Shown here: one piece after another, positions 3 to 15,710 of the stretch
How the letters are laid out: each line of letters begins with the position of its first letter
How positions within the stretch are numbered: position 1 is the stretch's first letter
Source: a bacterium
GTDB lineage: Bacteria > Blakebacterota > Blakebacteria > Blakebacterales > Blakebacteraceae
Assembly (NCBI GenBank): GCA_025774615.1
Contig: JALGVQ010000043.1
Location: forward strand, 1-17,355
DNA: 17,355 bases
Reading direction: 5' to 3'
Notes under the pieces: generated by a model
The model's database searches: none
Told to the model about the DNA's origin: nothing
Seen by the model: the letters and a program-made list of their open reading frames with translations, nothing else
Translations under genes and position numbers: made by a program

Positions 3-131
3 GTGGCCAACCGGGCTACCCAGCATCTCTACATCGTCAATCCGATCAAGTCGTTCGAGGAACGGGCGAAGAAACTCTTCAGCACCCACCCGGCTATCAA
101 TGACCGTATCTCCCGCCTCAGCAGCATGTGA
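3..131 (+). CDS. M48-family (HtpX-like) zinc metalloprotease, C-terminal fragment
   Basis: Only the last 42 codons lie in the window; the gene begins upstream. The readable tail contains ATQHLYIVNP, then LFSTHPAINDRISRL, ending in Met and TGA. A small-residue/His/hydrophobic-IVNP segment followed by LFSTHP-x-x-x-x-RI is the usual C-terminus of HtpX and related membrane-bound M48 peptidases, which degrade misfolded membrane proteins. The catalytic HExxH helix would be upstream and cannot be checked. The TGA overlaps the start of the next gene as TGATG, so the two are probably translationally coupled. Family assignment is fairly confident; whether it is HtpX proper or a periplasmic M48 relative (BepA/LoiP type) cannot be decided from the tail. 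Confidence 0.78.
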   Translation: MANRATQHLYIVNPIKSFEERAKKLFSTHPAINDRISRLSSM

Positions 132-916
132 TGAGAACACCGATTTTCCGCGCCTTCATTCTGGCAGGCAACATCCTTGGTCTATCCGTACTTTTCCTCG
201 CGCTGCTGCCTGGCCCGGTCGGAGCGCAGATCGTCAATATCGAGAGCATCCTCGTCGATGAACCGAAGGATGGGGTCGAAGGTGCCGTGCAGATCGGATT
301 CACTCTCATGGAGGGGAATTCGGAATATCGTCAGCTGGACGGCAACAGCATCATCCGCTGGAAGGGGGGGGAGCATATCTTCCAGCTGGTGGTGGGAGGC
401 TCATACAAGGCGACCGGTGATAAGAAGGTGGCCGACAACAGCATGGGACATTTCAGGTATGGTTATGCTGTCTCGAGCAGGGTCCGCCTGGAGGCTCTCC
501 TGCAGGTTCAGCGGAACGCCTTCGTGCGGCTCAATCGACGGGTGCTGGCCGGAGCCGGCTTCAGAGCCAACCTTCTCTCATCAGACCCCACTCGACTCGA
601 CCTGGGAGTCATCCTCATGCGCGAGGATGAAGTACTGCACAATGCCCCCTCCGAGCCCGGCTGGCGGGCGTCTCTTCTGCTGAGTGCCGGCTGGAAGCTC
701 ACACCCTCTGCGCAGTTGAGTGGCCAGATTTATTTCCAGCCCCTCCTCAGTGATACAAGGGACTTCAGGATCCTCAACGATACCGGCCTGACAGTCAGGG
801 TACTCGGCCCGCTCTCACTGCAGGTGAGCCTTCGATTGGCGCATGACAGCCGTCCACCGGCGGGTGTGGAAACGACCGATCTCTCGTTTCGCAATACGCT
901 GGCAATCTCCTTCTGA
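131..916 (+). CDS. DUF481-family outer-membrane beta-barrel protein
   Basis: The protein has 261 residues from the ATG at 131; a GTG one codon earlier (128) is an alternative start. The N-terminus is a Sec signal peptide: Arg at positions 2 and 7, a hydrophobic run, and likely cleavage after Val-Gly-Ala32. The rest is an alternation of short amphipathic strands such as GAVQIGFTLMEGNSEYRQLDG, a distant version of the DUF481 pattern (gxvelGf...tGNte...) seen in YdiY and 'salt-induced outer membrane protein'. It ends in Ile-Ser-Phe, an aromatic C-terminus typical of BAM-assembled barrels. The role of DUF481 proteins is poorly known. The gene overlaps the protease gene upstream and lies 24 bases before the TolC-family ATG, so the three form one operon. 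Family call is moderately confident. Confidence 0.72.
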   Translation: MRTPIFRAFILAGNILGLSVLFLALLPGPVGAQIVNIESILVDEPKDGVEGAVQIGFTLMEGNSEYRQLDGNSIIRWKGGEHIFQLVVGGSYKATGDKKVADNSMGHFRYGYAVSSRVRLEALLQVQRNAFVRLNRRVLAGAGFRANLLSSDPTRLDLGVILMREDEVLHNAPSEPGWRASLLLSAGWKLTPSAQLSGQIYFQPLLSDTRDFRILNDTGLTVRVLGPLSLQVSLRLAHDSRPPAGVETTDLSFRNTLAISF

Positions 917-940
917 TAAACCCGGAGGTGTTTGTACCTG

Positions 941-2506
941 ATGACCGGAAAATTGATTCACGTGATCCCGATGTTTGTGCTCTCGATGCTCCTGCTCAAC
1001 ACTCCGCAGGTATCCGCCGCTGCCGCCCCTCAACAGGACCCATCAGCGTACCGGCCAGGAGAGATCATCGTCCTTGACCGTGATCTGTCTTTGAGACTGG
1101 CTCTTGACCAGTCATGGCGGATCGAGGAGATGAGGCTGCATCTGCGACGTGACAACTGGAATCTTGAAGCCAGTCGCGCGGCGTTGAGATCGAATGCCAG
1201 CATGAGTTTCACGGTGCCGAATTTCGACCAGTCGATCAAGGAGATCATCGATCCTGCGACAGGAGATCCGATCGTCCTCGGTACCCGGTCGGCCCGGTAT
1301 TCCGGCAGTGTCACGGTCAGGCAGCCGTTGCCGACCAATGGGGTCGTCTCATTGAACGGTGCCTTCAACCGCACCTCTGACAAGCTCTTTTCCTATACAC
1401 CGGGTCGGAAGGCCTATTACGGGAGAGTGTTCCTGAGGTATGAGCAGCCGATCCTCCAGCCGAACCGCATCCAGGTGGCGATCAGACGCGCAGAGCTGAA
1501 ACTGGAGAGTACCGAACTCGATTTTCTCGGCAAGCAGATCGATATCATCAGGGACATCTCACGTGGCTACTTCGATCTGTACGACCGCACCTATCAGAGT
1601 CAGCTGGCCAACGAGGAGCAGCAGCGGCTCGAGTCGCTGTATGAAGCCGGCCGGCGACGGTTCCAGCGGGGCGATCTCACCGAGACCGACCTTCTCCAGC
1701 TTGAAGTGGATCTCTACGACAAGCGGAACCGCTCCTCCAGCAGCGCGGGAGCGCTGGCCCGCCAGAAGAGCGGATTCAAGAACTCGCTCGGTCTCTCCCA
1801 GGATGTGGACATCATGGTTGAACCGGAACTGACTTACACACCGGTGGCCATCGATGTCGATGTCGCGATCCAGCATTCCCTCGAGCATCGTCCCGATATC
1901 AGGCGGAATGAGATGTGGCGGGAAGGTCACGAGATGAGCCTGGAGGAGACCCGATCCCGCGGTTCGATGACCGGCACAGTGAGTCTCACTCTCGGGTTCG
2001 AGGGACGGGGTGATGAGATGGAACAGTTCACCCGGAATATCCTGGATCCCGATCAGGCGAGAGGCGCCGCCATCAACTTCACCATACCACTCTGGGACTG
2101 GGGCCGGAACACGGCGTCTCTCAATGCCCAGCTCGCTGACATGGAACGGATCATTCGATCGGGAGAAGAGACCCGCAAGAACATGGAGCGGGGAGTGCGG
2201 AACGTGGTCGACCGGGTGATGGAGGCCCAGGGGCGTCTCGATCTCCTGGTACGCAGTGTCGATGCCGCGGAACGGTCGTATCACCTCGCGGTTCAGCAGT
2301 TCGAATCCGGTTCGCTCAACGTCCAGGATCTCCTGCTGACCCAGGGCAGACTGGCCAGTTCGAGACGCAGTTACCTCTCATCCTACATCGACTACCGGAA
2401 GGCGCTCATCGATCTGTTGCGGAACACATACTGGGACTGGGAGCGGGACCAGCCGCTGACCAGAACGCTCGCGACCTTTATCGTGGCTGAGAACGATGAT
2501 TTCTGA
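941..2506 (+). CDS. TolC-family outer-membrane efflux protein
   Basis: The product has 521 residues from ATG 941. The frame is open to a TTG at 932 and a CTG at 938, and GGAGGTG at 924-930 is rather far (10-12 bases) from the ATG, so the start is uncertain by three codons. A signal peptide (hydrophobic VIPMFVLSMLLL, then Ser-Ala-Ala-Ala) leads into two outer-membrane-efflux (OEP) halves. Typical long-helix segments are visible: the region around RRAELKLESTELDF and the stretch ending ERSYHLAVQQFESGSLNVQDLL, whose F-x-x-G-x-x-x-x-x-D-L-L pattern is a TolC-family hallmark. Length fits the family (about 420-520). TolC channels form trimeric tunnels spanning the outer membrane and periplasm and pair with inner-membrane pumps. 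No pump gene adjoins it. It is last in the protease-DUF481-TolC operon. Confidence 0.9.
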   Translation: MTGKLIHVIPMFVLSMLLLNTPQVSAAAAPQQDPSAYRPGEIIVLDRDLSLRLALDQSWRIEEMRLHLRRDNWNLEASRAALRSNASMSFTVPNFDQSIKEIIDPATGDPIVLGTRSARYSGSVTVRQPLPTNGVVSLNGAFNRTSDKLFSYTPGRKAYYGRVFLRYEQPILQPNRIQVAIRRAELKLESTELDFLGKQIDIIRDISRGYFDLYDRTYQSQLANEEQQRLESLYEAGRRRFQRGDLTETDLLQLEVDLYDKRNRSSSSAGALARQKSGFKNSLGLSQDVDIMVEPELTYTPVAIDVDVAIQHSLEHRPDIRRNEMWREGHEMSLEETRSRGSMTGTVSLTLGFEGRGDEMEQFTRNILDPDQARGAAINFTIPLWDWGRNTASLNAQLADMERIIRSGEETRKNMERGVRNVVDRVMEAQGRLDLLVRSVDAAERSYHLAVQQFESGSLNVQDLLLTQGRLASSRRSYLSSYIDYRKALIDLLRNTYWDWERDQPLTRTLATFIVAENDDF

Positions 2507-2534
2507 GACCTGAGGTATCCGACATACATGAGCA

Positions 2535-2558
2535 GGGGGCCTGACGGGCCCCCTTTTT
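2535..2558 (+). terminator. Intrinsic terminator after the TolC-family gene
   Basis: The arms GGGGGCC and GGCCCCC are perfectly complementary around the loop TGACG and are followed at once by five T residues. It lies 28 bases after the TolC-family stop codon and before the sigma-factor gene, so it separates the two transcription units. Confidence 0.93.
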
Positions 2559-2614
2559 CATGCAACAATTCGGGGTCTGGTACCGCCATTACTGGTAGAC
2601 CGATGGGAGGAACG

Positions 2615-3184
2615 ATGGCACTGCCGGATGAACAGCTGATCGAAAGGACTCTCGCGGGAGACCTGGAGGGGTTCGGTGAACTCCACCGTCGGTACTTCGC
2701 GCGGGTCGTGGGGGTCGTGGAAGGGATCCTCACCGATCGATCGGGAGCCGAGGATACCGTGCAGAACGCATATATGTCTGCGCTTCAGGCTCTTCCCCGT
2801 CTTGCCGACAGGGATCGGTTTTATCCCTGGCTGCGCAGGATTGCCGTCAACCGTGCCATCGAAGAGAAACGCCGCGTCAGCCGGAAGGATCGACTCCACT
2901 CCTCCTGGGTCGAAGCCGGACGTACCGACGCGGATGCCTCTTCAGATTCACAAGCTCCTCTCGCATCCCTGATGCGGGAGGAGAGGGCCGGGCGGGTGAG
3001 AGAAGCCCTGGAGGAGCTCCCGGAAGGAATGAGGGCAGCGGTGGTACTCCGGTACTTCGACGAACTGTCGATGAGCCGGATAGCCGAGGTGCTGGGTTGT
3101 GAAGAAGTGACCGCGAGGACCCAGGTGTTCCGGGGGCTCCAGAAACTCGGCAGGATACTGGGTGACATGACCAACGATGACTGA
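2615..3184 (+). CDS. RNA polymerase sigma factor, ECF (sigma-70) family
   Basis: The protein has 189 residues. ATG 2615 is chosen because GGGAGG lies 4 bases upstream and the sequence then starts with the usual ECF opening (D-E-x-L-I-x-R-x-x-x-G-D). The frame is open further upstream through the terminator, which cannot be coding. Region sigma-2 covers about residues 23-89 (AEDTVQNAYMSAL; FYPWLRRIAVNRAIEEKRR). A variable linker follows, and region sigma-4 covers about 127-181 with the helix-turn-helix around LSMSRIAEVLGCEEVTARTQVF. ECF factors direct RNA polymerase to a stress or envelope regulon and are held inactive by an anti-sigma factor. The next gene, 17 bases downstream, is such a factor, so the pairing is strong. 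The target promoters are unknown. Confidence 0.93.
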   Translation: MALPDEQLIERTLAGDLEGFGELHRRYFARVVGVVEGILTDRSGAEDTVQNAYMSALQALPRLADRDRFYPWLRRIAVNRAIEEKRRVSRKDRLHSSWVEAGRTDADASSDSQAPLASLMREERAGRVREALEELPEGMRAAVVLRYFDELSMSRIAEVLGCEEVTARTQVFRGLQKLGRILGDMTNDD

Positions 3185-3201: not shown

Positions 3202-4074
3202 GTGCGTGAACATGACGGGTATGAAGCCTGCCCCGATCGTGAACCGGTTCTTGAGCAATACCTGTTCGGGACGATGGAAGGCAGGGAGAAGGCGGACCTT
3301 CTGGAGCATCTTGAAGGGTGTCGGGGATGCCGGCAGGCGCTCGCGGATGCCGGCTCCGGGCTGGAAGCGCTGGATGATCTGGAAGACCCACCGCTTCCCT
3401 TCGGAGCCCCATCCCTGTTGCCCGAAATCCAGGTCGAGTCGGAGAGAGCGTGGCGGACTTTTGTGGCTGGATCGATCGGGCATGAGAGCCGTGGACACTC
3501 ACTGTCCGGGATGCGTGCGGTTGCCGCGGCAGCACTCATCCTTGTCGGTATCGGGATCGGCTACTGGGCCATTCCCGGCAATCAGGGAATGGTTGAGAAC
3601 CTGGTTGCAGTCGACAGGATGGAGGTCGATTCAGAAGCGGTTGAGGCGCTTGTACGGGCCGAGTTCCTGGCCGACCTGGGGCTGCCCTATATCGATGGCG
3701 TACTCCAGCTGGTCTCGGCGGTGATGGAACTCGAATCAGGTGATGTGACGATCGGCAGTCTGGAATCGATCAGGGCACAGGCTCTCGATCTGCTGCGGGA
3801 CGGGCGTCTTCTGCAGAGACGTCTGGAGCCGGAACGTGACCAGACCTTCCTGGCGACGATCCACCGGGCGGCATTCTTCCTCGAGGATGTCGCCATCCTG
3901 GGAGGTCAGGGAGAGGAAGAAGGATCACTGCGAGAGCTGAGGGAGACCCTTCAGCTGACCGGTCTCGGTGACCGGCTTGTGGCTCTCGATGTTGACGGGG
4001 CGGTGTCCGAGGCTCTTGAAGCATCGGGGTGGATAGGCGAGGAATACGCACTCAGCAGGGAGGCAGGACGATGA
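3202..4074 (+). CDS. Transmembrane zinc-finger anti-sigma factor
   Basis: The product has 290 residues from GTG 3202, preceded by AAGGTGG 8-9 bases upstream. Residues 10-43 form an anti-sigma zinc-finger (ZAS/zf-HC2) module: Cys10, then His36-x3-Cys40-x2-Cys43 in the stretch LLEHLEGCRGCR. A single membrane helix spans about 104-123 (AVAAAALILVGIGIGYWAI). This puts the zinc finger in the cytoplasm, where it would bind the sigma factor, and about 165 mainly helical, acidic residues outside the membrane. The outer domain is long for this class and has no recognised fold. The gene follows the sigma factor by 17 bases and overlaps the HEAT-protein gene by ATGA, so all three are probably one operon. 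Confidence 0.88.
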   Translation: MREHDGYEACPDREPVLEQYLFGTMEGREKADLLEHLEGCRGCRQALADAGSGLEALDDLEDPPLPFGAPSLLPEIQVESERAWRTFVAGSIGHESRGHSLSGMRAVAAAALILVGIGIGYWAIPGNQGMVENLVAVDRMEVDSEAVEALVRAEFLADLGLPYIDGVLQLVSAVMELESGDVTIGSLESIRAQALDLLRDGRLLQRRLEPERDQTFLATIHRAAFFLEDVAILGGQGEEEGSLRELRETLQLTGLGDRLVALDVDGAVSEALEASGWIGEEYALSREAGR

Positions 4075-6056
4075 GGATCGGGAAAGATGTTCGACGGCCG
4101 CTCGGCCGCGTGATGACGCTGGCATATTTGGGAGCGCTGCTGGTGTCTCTCTCTCCTGTACAGGCGCAGGAAGAGGCCAGCACCATGTATCTGGAAGCGA
4201 GGGAACACCTGATAGAAGAACGGTTCGAGCATGCGCTTGTGCTGTTCAGGGAGGTAGTGACCGATCACGGAGAGAGCAGCAGGGCTGATGATGCCCAGTA
4301 CTATATCGGGTACACGCTCGAGCGGATGGGACAGAGCAGTGAGGCTGTCACAGCATTCGAAGAACTGATCCGCCGCTGGCCTGAATCATCACGGGTCGAG
4401 TCGGCGCGTTCTCACCTGGTCGATCTTCACGGAGTGCAGGGCGGGATGAGCCGGCAGGTACCACTCGAAGAGCTGCTCTCGAGCGGATCATCGTGGGAAT
4501 CGAGGAGGGACCTCGTCTTCGCCATGGCTCGCGCAGGCGATTTCTCAGGTGTGTCGGTCCTCGAAGATGTGATGCGGCGGGAATCTTCGAGTCGCCAGCA
4601 GGAATTGATCCGGATCCTGGGTGGTCACCTCTCGAACCAGTCGGCGAGAAGGGTGCTTGCCCTGGCGCTCGAGCCGAGCAGGTCTTCAAGTGTCCAGCTC
4701 CTGGCTCTGAAGACTCTGCAGCCGGTCGCGGGTCAGCAGGATGTGGCAGGCATGATCGAGATGGCACTGGCCCGGAACAATTCATCGAGCGTCCAGCTCG
4801 AGGCGATCAGGGTGCTCAGATCCTCAGCGAACGCGCCCCACGTACAGCGTGTGTTGGTGATGGCTCTTGAATCGGGTATCGGCTCCTCGGTCAAGATATC
4901 TGCGATCAGGGCATTGGATGGGTACCTGCTTGATGAAGCGGTCCGCCCATCAGTGGTACGACTCTTCCAGCAATCGGAATCGTCCAGTGTGCTGCTGGAA
5001 GCGCTCAAGGGTCTGGATGGAGATGTCGAACGGGCGGAGATCGCGGAGATCCTCTCGGTGGCCGCGCACAACCGGAACACATCGAGCGTCCAGATAGCCG
5101 CCATGCGGCTGGCCCGCAGCTCTGGCAATCCTGTCGTCAGGCAGGCAGCCGGACATGGTCTGGCCCGCGGAACGTCCTCCAGTGTGCAGATCGAGGCGGC
5201 ACGGGCACTCGCTGGAGGGGAGAACGAGGAGGCGGCAGCCGAAGCGCTCGAGTCGATGCTGAGGGAACGCTCGACCTACTCCTCGGTGATGATCGAAGGT
5301 CTGCGGTCGCTCACCCGTCATATGGGAACAGCTGCCGCGCCGCGCGCGGTGGCCGCAGCCCTGCACAGCTCCCTGTCGAGCTCGGTCCTGCTCGAGGCGC
5401 TCGACCTGGCCGAGCCGTTCGCGCTGGTCGAGCCGGTGAGGACGGCTCTCAGAGATATCCTCAAGCCCGGATCCGCGCCCTCATCGGTGAAGCTGAAGGC
5501 GATCAAGGTGCTGGGCCGGCGCATCTCCGAGGGTGAGATCCGAGCTCTCATCGCGGTGGCGATTGATCATTCCAATTCATCGAGTGTACAGCTTGCAGCG
5601 ATCGAGACGCTTGAAGACGCGTCAGATCAGCGGGATACGCGTGAACTGCTCTTCAGGGGCCTTGACCGCCGCAGCTCCAGTTCGGTGATACTCTCCGCGG
5701 TCAAAACACTCGAACCCTGGGTGGCTCGCGACCAGCAGATTAAGGAGCGGTTCATCGAGGTCATGGAGGAGCGTCAGATCTCATCGAGTGCGCGGGTAAG
5801 GACCGCTGAGGCACTCCTTCCAGGAGCTGACAACGGTCTGAAGCGTGGTATCGTGGCGGCCATGGAGGATGTGTGCCAGCGGCGATGGGAACAGTCGCGA
5901 AGGAACCGTATCCGGTTCAACGATAACACGATCAGGGACGCGATCGCCATCGTCGGAGAGATCGATCCAGAGAAGGCACGGGAACTTAAGCGGAAATACG
6001 GAAGACCGCCCTCACTTCTGCAGTGGATATTCGGGGCTGCCAACAGTACGGAGTGA
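4071..6056 (+). CDS. Exported TPR/HEAT-repeat protein with a 33-residue SSV repeat array
   Basis: The protein has 661 residues. ATG 4071 is chosen for its AGGGAGGCAGG ribosome site and its 4-base overlap with the anti-sigma stop. Residues 1-33 look like a Sec signal peptide (Arg/Lys-rich start, LAYLGALLVSLS, then Val-Gln-Ala). Residues 38-120 hold two TPR-like hairpins resembling BamD/YbgF repeats. Residues about 138-585 are helical HEAT-like repeats. Most carry Ser-Ser-Val followed by x-[LI]-x-[AG]-[LIM]-[RK], with the anchor position at residues 142, 175, 208, 241, 274, 307, 340, 372, 406, 439, 473, 506, 539 and 574. The C-terminus (590-661) is basic and non-repetitive. Such solenoids are protein-binding scaffolds. 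Its place beside the sigma/anti-sigma pair suggests a periplasmic sensor or adaptor, but the function is unknown. Confidence 0.85.
   Translation: MRIGKDVRRPLGRVMTLAYLGALLVSLSPVQAQEEASTMYLEAREHLIEERFEHALVLFREVVTDHGESSRADDAQYYIGYTLERMGQSSEAVTAFEELIRRWPESSRVESARSHLVDLHGVQGGMSRQVPLEELLSSGSSWESRRDLVFAMARAGDFSGVSVLEDVMRRESSSRQQELIRILGGHLSNQSARRVLALALEPSRSSSVQLLALKTLQPVAGQQDVAGMIEMALARNNSSSVQLEAIRVLRSSANAPHVQRVLVMALESGIGSSVKISAIRALDGYLLDEAVRPSVVRLFQQSESSSVLLEALKGLDGDVERAEIAEILSVAAHNRNTSSVQIAAMRLARSSGNPVVRQAAGHGLARGTSSSVQIEAARALAGGENEEAAAEALESMLRERSTYSSVMIEGLRSLTRHMGTAAAPRAVAAALHSSLSSSVLLEALDLAEPFALVEPVRTALRDILKPGSAPSSVKLKAIKVLGRRISEGEIRALIAVAIDHSNSSSVQLAAIETLEDASDQRDTRELLFRGLDRRSSSSVILSAVKTLEPWVARDQQIKERFIEVMEERQISSSARVRTAEALLPGADNGLKRGIVAAMEDVCQRRWEQSRRNRIRFNDNTIRDAIAIVGEIDPEKARELKRKYGRPPSLLQWIFGAANSTE
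4488..5825 (+). repeat. Protein-level tandem array, about 99-bp period (HEAT-like units)
   Basis: About fourteen units of 33 residues (99 bases) run through the TPR/HEAT gene. The anchor position recurs at intervals of 33, 33, 33, 33, 33, 33, 32, 34, 33, 34, 33, 33 and 35 residues. The DNA of the units has diverged: the equivalent Ser codons use both TCN and AGY. The array is therefore conserved at the protein level and is not a recent DNA duplication. Confidence 0.8.
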
Positions 6057-6168: not shown

Positions 6169-6256
6169 ATTATGCAGTCCAATACCATTGATTATTGTAG
6201 TTTACTAATAATGTATTGTGGAGTCTGAATGTGTTGAATAATGGATTATCCAGTCC
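6169..6256. repeat. 12-bp direct repeat pair, ATTATGCAGTCC / ATTATCCAGTCC
   Basis: Copies at 6169-6180 and 6245-6256 match at 11 of 12 positions, 76 bases apart start to start. The second copy fills the promoter spacer and abuts the -10 element, and it overlaps the small palindrome GGATTATCC (6243-6251). This arrangement is typical of an operator pair for a repressor. Confidence 0.5.
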
Positions 6257-6262
6257 TATTAT
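6234..6262 (+). promoter_or_regulatory. Sigma70-type promoter for the AAA ATPase
   Basis: The -35 element TTGAAT (6234-6239) and the -10 element TATTAT (6257-6262; 5 of 6 to consensus) are separated by exactly 17 bases. Transcription would start near 6269, leaving a leader of about 50 bases before ATG 6319. The spacer contains the operator-like repeat described separately. Confidence 0.6.
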
Positions 6263-6318
6263 TGTTATGGATACTGAGTTTGGTCGAGAGACATACTACC
6301 AGTCAAAGAGACTTCATC

Positions 6319-7566
6319 ATGTATCAGGCACGGGTTGTTGACGGTGAATTGAAGAAACGCCTTACCTCCATGGGGGCGGTGGTTCTCGTGGGTCCCAGGG
6401 CCTGTGGAAAGACGGCTACAGCCCGTCAGTTCGCCAGTAGTGAAGTACTGTTGGATGTAGACCGGAACGCCCGCATGGCCATCTCAGTTGATCCGGCTCT
6501 GGTGCTGGAAGGAGCGGTACCACGGCTTATTGATGAATGGCAGATAGAACCGGATATCTGGAACCACATTCGCCGCGCTGTTGATGATCGTGGAGTGCCG
6601 GGCCAGTTCATCCTTACAGGATCAGCCATTCCCGCAGATGATGTCACCCGTCACACCGGGGCAGGTCGTCTGACTAGAATTCGAATGCGCCCCATGTCCC
6701 TCTTTGAGACCGGAGCTTCCACAGGTGAGATTTCCCTGAAGGCGCTTCTCGATGGTGCGTCACCACATAGCCCGAATCCCGGGCTGACGGTGCCCGAACT
6801 GGCGGAGAAAGCTGCGGTCGGTGGCTGGCCAGGACACCTGAATCTGAGTGCATCCGAGTCTCTTGATGCGGTGCGTGCCTATCTGGATGAGATACGTCGA
6901 GTTGATTTGGTTCAGGCAGACCAGAGGGAGAGAGATCCGGTGAAAGTCGGCCGGCTGCTTGCGTCCCTCGGACGTAATGTGGCTACCTATGCCAGCATAT
7001 CGACCCTGGCAGCAGATTCCGGAGGTACAATCGGTGAGATGGCGCGAACCACGGTACATGCGTATCTGTCAGTTCTGGATCGGCTCATGATTATCGAAGA
7101 CCAGCCGGCCTGGTCACCGCACCTGCGCTCAAAATCCCGGATGCGAAGTGCGTCGAAGCGCCATTTCGTTGACCCCTCCCTGGCTGTTGCTGCCCTGCGG
7201 GCTTCACCGGACCAGCTGTTGAAAGATCTGGAACTGTTCGGATTTATTTTCGAATCCATGGTCATACGTGACCTTCGAGTCTATTCTCAGGCAGCCGATG
7301 CCGCAGTTTTCCAATACTTGGACAACACCGGGCTTGAAGTGGATGCGATTGTGCAGGCAACTGATGGTCGCTGGGCTGCGTTCGATATCAAGTTGGGACA
7401 GGGTTATGTGGAGGAGGGGGCCAGGAATCTGCTGAAGTTCAGAGATCGTGTGGATACCAGCCGGTGTGGTGAACCCGGCAATCTGGCCGTCATTGTCGGC
7501 ACAGGCTATGGCTACACCCGTGAAGACGGTGTTTCAGTTATCCCCGTGGGAGCTCTGGGACCATAG
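6319..7566 (+). CDS. ATP-binding protein, AAA_14/DUF4143 family
   Basis: The product has 415 residues from ATG 6319, with a weak AAAGAG ribosome site 8 bases upstream. The frame is open further upstream but would run through the promoter. The Walker A motif is GPRACGKT (25-32), Walker B is RLIDEW (Asp72, Glu73), and LTGSA (99-103) is a sensor-1-like strand. A winged-helix/DUF4143 region follows (about 190-360). It ends in Glu340-Val-Asp342, then FDIKLG with Asp356 and Lys358, the degenerate nuclease-like core seen in this family. These ATPases are widespread, often mobile, and have no settled function; some behave as toxin/antitoxin-like or defence-linked genes. It stands alone with its own promoter in an AT-rich island, which suggests horizontal acquisition. 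Confidence 0.88.
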   Translation: MYQARVVDGELKKRLTSMGAVVLVGPRACGKTATARQFASSEVLLDVDRNARMAISVDPALVLEGAVPRLIDEWQIEPDIWNHIRRAVDDRGVPGQFILTGSAIPADDVTRHTGAGRLTRIRMRPMSLFETGASTGEISLKALLDGASPHSPNPGLTVPELAEKAAVGGWPGHLNLSASESLDAVRAYLDEIRRVDLVQADQRERDPVKVGRLLASLGRNVATYASISTLAADSGGTIGEMARTTVHAYLSVLDRLMIIEDQPAWSPHLRSKSRMRSASKRHFVDPSLAVAALRASPDQLLKDLELFGFIFESMVIRDLRVYSQAADAAVFQYLDNTGLEVDAIVQATDGRWAAFDIKLGQGYVEEGARNLLKFRDRVDTSRCGEPGNLAVIVGTGYGYTREDGVSVIPVGALGP

Positions 7567-13685: not shown

Positions 13686-14936
13686 GTGGATATTGTTCGA
13701 GAGCCCAGAAAGAAAACGGGCCGCTACATCTGGATAACAGTGGGAGTGCTGGCGGTGATCGCCGTCACACTCTGGCTGCGCGGGCTGGAACCAGCGGCGC
13801 CGACGGTGGACGGGGCGATCATCTGGACCGACATCGTCAAGCGGGACGATATGCTCCGCCAGGTGCGGGGTACCGGGAACCTGCGTCCGAAGAACATCCT
13901 GCTCATCACTGCGACCACTGGTGGCAAGGTCGAGAAGATCTTCGCCGAACCAGGTCTGGTGGTTGTGCCTGAAACCGTCCTGCTCATCCTCAGCAACCCC
14001 GATGTCGAACTCGACGCCCTCCAGGCCAAGCAGGTGCTTGTCGCCGCGGAAGCGAATTTTGAAAATCTCAGAGGTACACTCGAAACCAGTCTGCTGAATC
14101 AGCAGGTCACCGTTTCGAGCGTTCGGAATCAGCTGCGGGACGCCCAGCGGCGGCTCGATTCATACAACGAAGTGAAAGAAGAGGTCTCCCGTCTCGATCT
14201 GGAACGGACACAGGATGAGGTCGAAGAACTCACCTCACGTCTGGAGATCGAGCAACGGACGCTGACACTGCGGACCGAAGGGATGGATCGTACCCTGAAC
14301 GCCGAGCAGGAGGCTGTGGAGCGGCTCCGTGATCTGGCTGAGTTCCAGCAGGACCGGGTGAAAGCGCTGCAGGTGAAGGCGGGAACGGAAGGGACACTGC
14401 GGGAACTGCAGCCCGAAACGGGACAATGGATCCCGGCGGGACAGACCCTCGGTGTCATCATCCAGCCGGGTGCGCTGGAAGCAGTGGTCGGGATTCCGGA
14501 AGTCCAGGCGAAGGACGTCCTGGTCGGACAGGATGCGACTGTCGATACTCGCGCCGCGGGCGGGCGTGCCGTACCCGGACGTGTGACGCGCATCGACCCC
14601 TCAGCCTCCGGCGGACTGGTGACTGTTGACATTGAAATACTGGGTGAACTTCCCCGTGGCGCGTTGGCCGATCAGAGCGTGGAGGGGATCATCACCATCG
14701 AGCGACTTGAGAATGTGCTGAACATGAAACGGCCGACGGTCGGTCAGGCAAACAGCAGAGTCGGGATGTTCAAGATCGTGGACGATGGGCAGTATGCCGT
14801 ACGCATCACTGTTCAGATCGGACAGACCTCAGTGAACAGTGTCGAGATACTAGGCGGCCTGCAGGAGGGGGACGTGGTGATTCTCTCTGATATGGCCAGA
14901 TGGGACGAATTTGACCGTGTGAGGATCCGGAGATAG
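13686..14936 (+). CDS. Efflux periplasmic adaptor (HlyD/MacA-like membrane-fusion protein)
   Basis: The product has 416 residues from GTG 13686, with an AG-rich ribosome site (GAGAGAGA). One N-terminal membrane helix (13-31) anchors it, with the rest periplasmic. The order fits a membrane-fusion protein. A first lipoyl half (about 71-104, GGKVEKIFAEPGLVV) is followed by a long coiled-coil hairpin (about 107-228, rich in Glu, Arg and Leu). Then come the second lipoyl half (about 230-258, GTEGTLRELQPETGQWIPAG), a beta-barrel domain (about 262-340) and a membrane-proximal domain (about 350-416). Such adaptors link an inner-membrane pump to a TolC channel. It opens an operon with two ABC ATPases and a TolC gene, so a MacAB-type exporter is likely. 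The substrate is unknown. Confidence 0.9.
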   Translation: MDIVREPRKKTGRYIWITVGVLAVIAVTLWLRGLEPAAPTVDGAIIWTDIVKRDDMLRQVRGTGNLRPKNILLITATTGGKVEKIFAEPGLVVVPETVLLILSNPDVELDALQAKQVLVAAEANFENLRGTLETSLLNQQVTVSSVRNQLRDAQRRLDSYNEVKEEVSRLDLERTQDEVEELTSRLEIEQRTLTLRTEGMDRTLNAEQEAVERLRDLAEFQQDRVKALQVKAGTEGTLRELQPETGQWIPAGQTLGVIIQPGALEAVVGIPEVQAKDVLVGQDATVDTRAAGGRAVPGRVTRIDPSASGGLVTVDIEILGELPRGALADQSVEGIITIERLENVLNMKRPTVGQANSRVGMFKIVDDGQYAVRITVQIGQTSVNSVEILGGLQEGDVVILSDMARWDEFDRVRIRR

Positions 14937-14944
14937 TCCGGATC
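14924..14944. repeat. Perfect 8-bp inverted repeat across the adaptor stop codon
   Basis: The arms GATCCGGA and TCCGGATC enclose the loop GATAG, whose last three bases are the adaptor's stop codon TAG. There is no T-tract, so it may act as an RNA hairpin at the gene junction, limiting read-through or protecting the upstream message. Confidence 0.5.
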
Positions 14945-14969
14945 GTACGAAACTCTGGAAGGGAAGAGA

Positions 14970-15710
14970 ATGGATAACGTCGCAAAGCAGCCACTGATCA
15001 GACTGGAAGGTGTGAGCAAGGTCTTTTACACCGAAGAGGTGGAGACCCACGCGCTTCACACCATACAGCTCGAGATCCAGTCGGGAGAATACGTCTCCAT
15101 TGCCGGTCCTTCCGGTTGTGGAAAGACGACTCTCCTGTCGATCCTGGGTCTCCTCGATACGCCTTCAGATGGAACGTATCTGCTGGATGGAGATCCGGTT
15201 CAGAACCTGACGCTTGCCCAGCGGGCGCGGATCCGTAACCAGGCGATCGGCTTCATTTTCCAGGCCTATAACCTGATCGGTGATCTGACGGTCTTCGAGA
15301 ATGTGGAACTGCCCCTCACCTATCGCGGCATGCCGTCGGCGGACCGCAAGAAGCGGGTGCAGGAATCACTGGAGCGGGTCGGGATGGAACATCGGATGAA
15401 GCATTACCCTTCCCAGCTCTCTGGTGGTCAGCAGCAGCGGGTTGCGGTGGCACGCGCTATCGCGGGACGCCCGCTGATCCTGCTTGCCGATGAGCCGACG
15501 GGGAACCTTGACTCCACCAATGGCGAAGCCGTGATGGATCTGCTGGACGAGCTGCACCAGGATGGTGCCACCATCTGCATGGTGACACACGATCCCCGCT
15601 ATGCTCACCACGCGGAGAACCACATCAATCTCTTCGACGGGCAGATCGTTTTGGATACCAATGGGGAGAAGGTCACTCAGCTGGAAGAGAGCGGTTTCGA
15701 CGTCGCATAG
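14970..15710 (+). CDS. ABC transporter ATP-binding protein (MacB/LolD type)
   Basis: The protein has 246 residues, starting at ATG 14970 after a good GGAAGGGAAGAG ribosome site. All ATPase motifs are intact: Walker A GPSGCGKT (46-53), the Q-loop in FIFQAYNLI (95-103), the signature LSGGQQQR (150-157), Walker B LILLADEP (169-176) with Asp174 and Glu175, the D-loop GNLDS (178-182), and switch His207 (VTHD). The spacing and the FIFQxYNL and DEPTGNLD wording are those of the LolD/MacB/FtsE class, which works with FtsX-like permeases on envelope substrates. The protein has no permease domain of its own. It lies 33 bases after the adaptor gene and is presumably the main energy source for this exporter. 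Confidence 0.94.
   Translation: MDNVAKQPLIRLEGVSKVFYTEEVETHALHTIQLEIQSGEYVSIAGPSGCGKTTLLSILGLLDTPSDGTYLLDGDPVQNLTLAQRARIRNQAIGFIFQAYNLIGDLTVFENVELPLTYRGMPSADRKKRVQESLERVGMEHRMKHYPSQLSGGQQQRVAVARAIAGRPLILLADEPTGNLDSTNGEAVMDLLDELHQDGATICMVTHDPRYAHHAENHINLFDGQIVLDTNGEKVTQLEESGFDVA

Follow-up and report, generated by a model that had tools for sequence, protein, structure and literature searches.

Gene neighbourhood and domain architecture

The window, that is, the whole 17,355-nucleotide stretch of DNA analysed here, carries a gene for a TPR-HEAT protein that lies immediately downstream of an ECF sigma factor gene and a zinc-finger anti-sigma factor gene. The features are:

128..916, + strand: DUF481 outer-membrane protein gene, 5' of the sigma cluster (Pfam DUF481, 7.4e-27)
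932..2506, + strand: TolC/OEP-family protein gene, 5' of the sigma gene (Pfam OEP, 2.2e-33)
2528..3184, + strand: ECF sigma factor gene, 218 aa from the called start, which may be internal
3202..4074, + strand: anti-sigma factor gene (Pfam zf-HC2, 2.6e-05)
4071..6056, + strand: TPR-HEAT protein gene, 661 aa, the subject of this study
4071..4169, + strand: predicted signal peptide of that protein, residues 1-33, with LVSLSPVQA before the cleavage site and QEE after it
4170..4418, + strand: TPR domain of the CpoB/BamD type, residues about 34-116 (Pfam TPR_6, 3e-07)
4485..5846, + strand: HEAT-like array, 14 units of 32-35 residues

The four upstream genes are all in the same orientation as the TPR-HEAT gene, whose ATG overlaps the stop codon of the anti-sigma gene as ATGA. 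The sigma factor was recognised by Pfam Sigma70_r4_2 (1.3e-14) and Sigma70_r2 (3.1e-11), and by NCBIfam sigma70-ECF at 1.4e-23, which exceeds the family cut-off. The anti-sigma factor has one transmembrane (TM) helix (residues about 106-124) followed by an extracytoplasmic region of ~166 aa that is acidic (14 K/R vs 33 D/E), and a Pfam scan of this region detected no HEAT repeats. The same gene order, including the DUF481 and TolC/OEP genes, is found in the congeneric genome G001 (locus L032); the observation that the array stands beside a sigma/anti-sigma pair, made from the sequence-only reading, is thus true of both genomes. On the other side of the HEAT gene, an AAA_14/DUF4143 ATPase gene (6241-7566) separates it from an asparaginase gene, which in the congeneric genome (L031) directly adjoins the HEAT gene, so that the ATPase gene looks like an insertion, or a loss, in either lineage. 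Besides the TolC-like gene of the sigma cluster (932-2506), the window has a HlyD-like and ABC ATPase gene pair at 13686-15710, 11 kb downstream, which might belong with it to a single efflux system.

The stretch that first drew attention (4488-5825) is inside a single open reading frame (4071-6056, +). The signal peptide of its product is predicted from hydropathy only, with a hydrophobic peak of 1.93 over residues 14-28, and the cleavage site, read by eye, appears to be of the AxA type. The TPR domain also matched TIGR02795 at 1.8e-09, which is under that model's cut-off. The proposal that the repeats form a HEAT-like solenoid is supported, with a Pfam HEAT_2 (PF13646) match of 48.3 bits against a gathering score of 27.7 (E 1.3e-12). 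The 661-aa protein itself gave no zinc-finger match in a Pfam scan. Signal peptide, CpoB-like TPR domain and HEAT array are all present, and with the sigma and anti-sigma genes immediately upstream the protein has the full plan of the TPR-HEAT proteins encoded in sigma/anti-sigma operons.

A serine pair fixed in 13 of the 14 units

A Ser-Ser-x mark recurs 14 times in the array. The third residues of the 14 marks are at 142, 175, 208, 241, 274, 307, 340, 372, 406, 439, 473, 506, 539 and 574 (gaps of 33, 33, 33, 33, 33, 33, 32, 34, 33, 34, 33, 33 and 35 residues), and 11 are exactly SSV, the other three being SSW, SSR and SSA. When the array region was shuffled 20,000 times with its composition preserved, SS dipeptides spaced 31-35 residues apart formed chains of at most 5, compared with the 14 observed; for exact SSV, the shuffle mean was 0.7 and the maximum 6, compared with 11. 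The claim of 14 spaced serine marks therefore stands as to number and spacing, with one reservation: at the first mark (SSW, 142) the predicted helix begins at W142 and not at a serine, which puts this mark out of register, and it was left out of the in-register set. The remaining 13 units (residues 173-574), unit 175 with its SSR among them, have Ser-Ser where helix B starts. The strict 33-residue period, which had been read as special, is ordinary, as the period in relatives is mostly 32-33.

Counting from the third residue (V), positions V-2 and V-1 are Ser in all 12 of the best-aligned units (entropy 0), as they are in unit 175. The hydrophobic core positions vary among these 12 units, while both serines do not. 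The preceding position, V-3 (the N-cap position), is variable (S/G/T/Y/P), and a single aligned unit has Arg at V+1. The Asp/Asn-x-x-Val-Arg turn, typical of HEAT repeats and not strictly required, is absent from the array, where a turn reads SSSVQLEA. V+6 is K/R in 10/14 units, forming a basic stripe.

Outside the SSV, the units share on average 20% amino-acid identity (maximum 41%) and 41% nucleotide identity, and therefore are no recent copies of one another. The switching of serine codons between TCN and AGY is borne out by the counts, with the second serine encoded by AGY in 7/12 units and by TCG in 5/12. Recent duplication was considered as the origin of the mark and rejected, given the low identity between units and the switching of codon class.

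Conservation between congeneric genomes

The four genomes compared within the phylum are all incomplete and fragmented, and only one of the others is congeneric. Its HEAT gene is split across two contigs, L031 (G001:C143) and L032 (G001:C169), and the C-terminal part shifts frame twice, at about residues 541 and 610 in window-protein numbering, which may be either assembly error or decay. Four units could be aligned without frame problems. Across them, all 12 marked residues are kept, compared with 106/126 residues elsewhere (20/126 differ), and the same stretch has 42 synonymous codon changes, some of them at the marks themselves. Units 539 and 574, seen in another frame, retain their SSV and SSA; at unit 142 the sequence is TSW. 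The mix of TCN and AGY codons, together with the persistence of the mark in the single congeneric genome compared, therefore argues that the serines have been selected, as had been suggested. Judged by these comparisons, the mark predates the divergence of the two congeneric genomes and is under selection.

Structure models

A full-length AlphaFold2 model built from a shallow alignment was of mediocre quality (pLDDT 72.6, pTM 0.45). A model of three units, made from the array's own repeats, reached pLDDT 84.4 and pTM 0.79 and is a two-helix solenoid, as expected of HEAT. Its best matches by VIA-align were alphaRep, DOHH and PR65 HEAT structures (Z about 10-12), including the HEAT/alphaRep solenoids PDB 3ltj and 1b3u (Z about 10, rmsd 2.5-2.6 A). 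These solenoids keep the usual Asp...Val-Arg turn, whereas the window array has Ser-Ser-Val-(Gln/Lys/Leu/Met/Ile) instead. With Foldseek, the three-unit model gave no match at E <= 0.001; full-length matches were long helical-repeat proteins with a TM of about 0.1-0.3 and were discarded. Querying PDB sequences with the unit profile returned chance-level matches only.

In the full-length model, helix B begins at the first serine in 12/13 in-register units; in unit 340 it begins a residue sooner. The helix B start agrees in the three-unit model. The serines would thus be helix positions N1 and N2, at the edge of the intra-unit turn. The expectation that the serines occupy one place on the solenoid is matched by the models, which have all 13 in-register marks at the helix B start. 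The Val of SSV would be N3 and is probably buried. By helical wheel, V-1 would face outward near the partly basic V+6 stripe, itself placed on the outward face of helix B, and V-2 would face the neighbouring unit.

TPR-HEAT relatives and the distribution of the mark

In the other genus of the same family, genomes G002 and G003 have a TPR-HEAT gene without an SSV array. In G002 it directly follows sigma and anti-sigma genes, and the G003 contig begins within the gene. The same operon plan (sigma, zinc-finger anti-sigma, TPR-HEAT) occurs at L033 in that genus, in Calditrichota (L051, L054), in Aminicenantes (L052) and in G047. The turns of the Calditrichota, Aminicenantes and G047 arrays are of the Asp/Asn/Glu type or carry other lineage signatures, such as KAALYA in Calditrichota (L051/L054) and EKALFWLGQ/EKAVFWISQ in G047, and none has SSV. 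As a set, the TPR-HEAT proteins (L033/L050, L034, L038, L051, L052, L054) share with the window protein the operon position, predicted secretion, the CpoB/YbgF-like TPR domain and a HEAT array of ~32-residue units. They differ in that their turns are mostly Asp/Asn/Glu/Ser-x-x-Val/Leu/Ile-Arg/Lys, without the SSV mark, and their HEAT sequence is nearer to generic HEAT_2/PBS-type repeats than the window array is. Since homologues keep both fold and operon without SSV, the mark is not supported as a family-wide functional signature, an outcome that the sequence-only reading had itself named as telling against its proposal.

Of 193 genomes, only the window's own contained a DNA pattern of four SSV marks exactly 33 codons apart, although this pattern misses arrays with 32/34 spacing and the contig-split congeneric copy. 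A first contig scan of genomes with a single protein as query gave no matches. On the evidence at hand, the SSV mark appears to be genus-specific.

Some features of these loci lie apart from the mark. The N-termini of two of the TPR-HEAT proteins (L050 and L034) and a separate HEAT gene (L054:7303-8121) have a repetitive acidic-hydrophobic segment (DIEFDF..) that is absent from the window protein. The same phylum also has a second operon of similar plan (L035, G000:C191; L036, G001:C224; L114, G003:C225), which comprises a DsbD-like protein, an ECF sigma factor, a zinc-finger anti-sigma factor and a TPR protein with a GWxTD domain; a similar set is found in KSB1 (L053).

HEAT-tailed anti-sigma factors as the nearest relatives of the array

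Profiles of one unit had too little power to rank HEAT subtypes, so three-unit blocks were used. A search of 386 genomes with a profile of the three-unit SSV block gave matches beyond the genus in just three, G004 (2.2e-10), G355 (1.6e-4) and G114 (3e-3). In all three, the matched gene encodes an anti-sigma factor that has a zinc finger at the N-terminus, a TM helix and HEAT at the C-terminus; a sigma gene adjoins it and a DUF4097-type gene follows (Pfam-confirmed for G004). Further surveys found 15 matching genomes around G355 and 17 around G047, and a survey around G004 added none. Among all 28 loci read, at least 21 have a zinc-finger motif together with HEAT, usually with a sigma gene upstream; the rest are a few more probable HEAT anti-sigmas, two other HEAT proteins and one unclear case. 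In the reverse search, the HEAT tail of the G004 anti-sigma found the window gene at 1.5e-11, ranking fourth in 145 genomes. Profile searches for the SSV version of the repeat thus reach, outside the genus, almost only HEAT-tailed anti-sigmas, and the SSV array appears to be confined to the genus.

By profile, then, HEAT-tailed zinc-finger anti-sigmas (zf-HC2, TM and HEAT_2; e.g. L037:5380-6369, L060:976-1950, L117) have the closest HEAT units. They share with the window array a 33-residue spacing in places, an N/S-x-G/S-V-R/Q-L/I-x-A turn and an adjacent sigma gene. The nearest turns are NSGVQIEA (L117) and NSSIRILA (G004), compared with SSSVQLEA in the window protein. The likeness is weak at the single-unit level (16 bits for G004) and clear at the three-unit level. 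They also differ: these anti-sigmas have 3-4 units, whereas the window array has 14, on a separate secreted TPR protein with invariant Ser-Ser and without zf-HC2 and TM on the same polypeptide. Within the window genome's phylum, matches to a HEAT-tailed anti-sigma span the zinc finger and TM only. The genes of HEAT-tailed anti-sigmas often lie between ECF sigma and DUF4097 genes, whereas no DUF4097 gene was found among the window genes scanned. HEAT-tailed anti-sigmas occur in many distant genomes (L037:4793-7650, L059, L060, L062, L063, L091, L098-L110, L117-L127), and several have a common unit order of SSxxRL / NVRLAA / SPLVQIAL. Within open-access coverage of the literature, no paper was found on HEAT-tailed anti-sigmas or on a serine ladder in HEAT proteins.

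What the serines may do

The Ser-Ser at N1-N2 would replace the usual Asn/Asp-Pro/x-x start of helix B, with the Arg after the Val lost too, which makes a structural role in starting the helix at least as likely as a ligand-binding or modified surface. Most likely, at odds that we would put close to even, the pair serves to start helix B and pack the turn, repeated along the solenoid of this genus. Next in likelihood, and tentatively, the serines might instead form a dedicated binding strip, in which 26 hydroxyls and 13 helix N-termini are presented along one edge of the solenoid to an extended or repeating ligand. Such a ligand could be an anionic polymer of the envelope or an acidic peptide, for instance the tail of the anti-sigma. 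The invariance of two non-core positions over 13 units, beyond the conservation of the hydrophobic core itself, would fit such a strip, as would the outward basic stripe at V+6 and the acidic extracytoplasmic region of the anti-sigma. However, homologues in the same kind of operon manage without the serines, and over the whole HEAT array the charges balance (56 K/R, 55 D/E).

That duplication or homogenisation of units left the mark as a side effect, without selection of its own, gains some plausibility from the lineage-specific signatures of related arrays, but the divergence of the units outside SSV, the switching serine codon classes and the fixation of all 12 marked residues amid 20 other replacements and 42 synonymous changes make such drift very unlikely. 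Covalent modification by O-glycosylation or phosphorylation, at about one site per repeat, is more improbable still. Serines at a helix start in a predicted extracytoplasmic protein could in principle be targets, and O-glycosylation in Bacteroidetes uses the sequon Asp-Ser/Thr-x. That sequon is absent here, where V-3 is S/G/T/Y/P and V-2 always Ser, and no kinase or glycosyltransferase was seen among the window genes scanned.

A proposed periplasmic partner of the anti-sigma factor

The most likely role of the TPR-HEAT protein is that of a periplasmic co-regulator of the adjacent anti-sigma, bridging it to an envelope ligand bound by the TPR domain, the HEAT array or both (probability about 0.5). 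A scaffold of signal peptide, CpoB-like TPR and HEAT solenoid would be translated with the ECF sigma and the membrane-spanning zinc-finger anti-sigma. In several other phyla, the anti-sigma itself ends, on its extracytoplasmic side, in a fused HEAT module of the nearest type; here the module would sit on a separate secreted partner and have expanded from about 3-4 to 14 units. As the module belongs to the anti-sigma itself in those phyla and to the secreted product of the next gene here, it is likely to work together with the anti-sigma beyond the cytoplasmic membrane. The solenoid would contact the extracytoplasmic domain of the anti-sigma and/or an envelope ligand, and so set the release of sigma. 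Several points count against this reading: the arguments from operon and fusion are indirect, HEAT repeats occur promiscuously and single units score weakly against those of the anti-sigmas, the window genes scanned include no DUF4097 neighbour, and the full-length model is mediocre. RseB, the co-regulator of sigma-E, is likewise a periplasmic partner encoded beside an anti-sigma gene; the likeness is one of proposed role, and no resemblance of sequence or fold is claimed. The fullest version of this idea, a split sensor in which the HEAT tail acts in trans from a secreted scaffold and the genus-specific ladder of serines is also the strip that binds the ligand or the anti-sigma, is doubtful as a whole.

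The window protein links two arrangements that are unconnected in the papers found, namely HEAT-tailed anti-sigmas, and secreted TPR-HEAT proteins encoded beside HEAT-less anti-sigmas. This link suggests a testable swap between in-cis and in-trans sensors, and the invariant Ser-Ser offers a clean natural case of the effect of a repeat-wide change at the HEAT turn.
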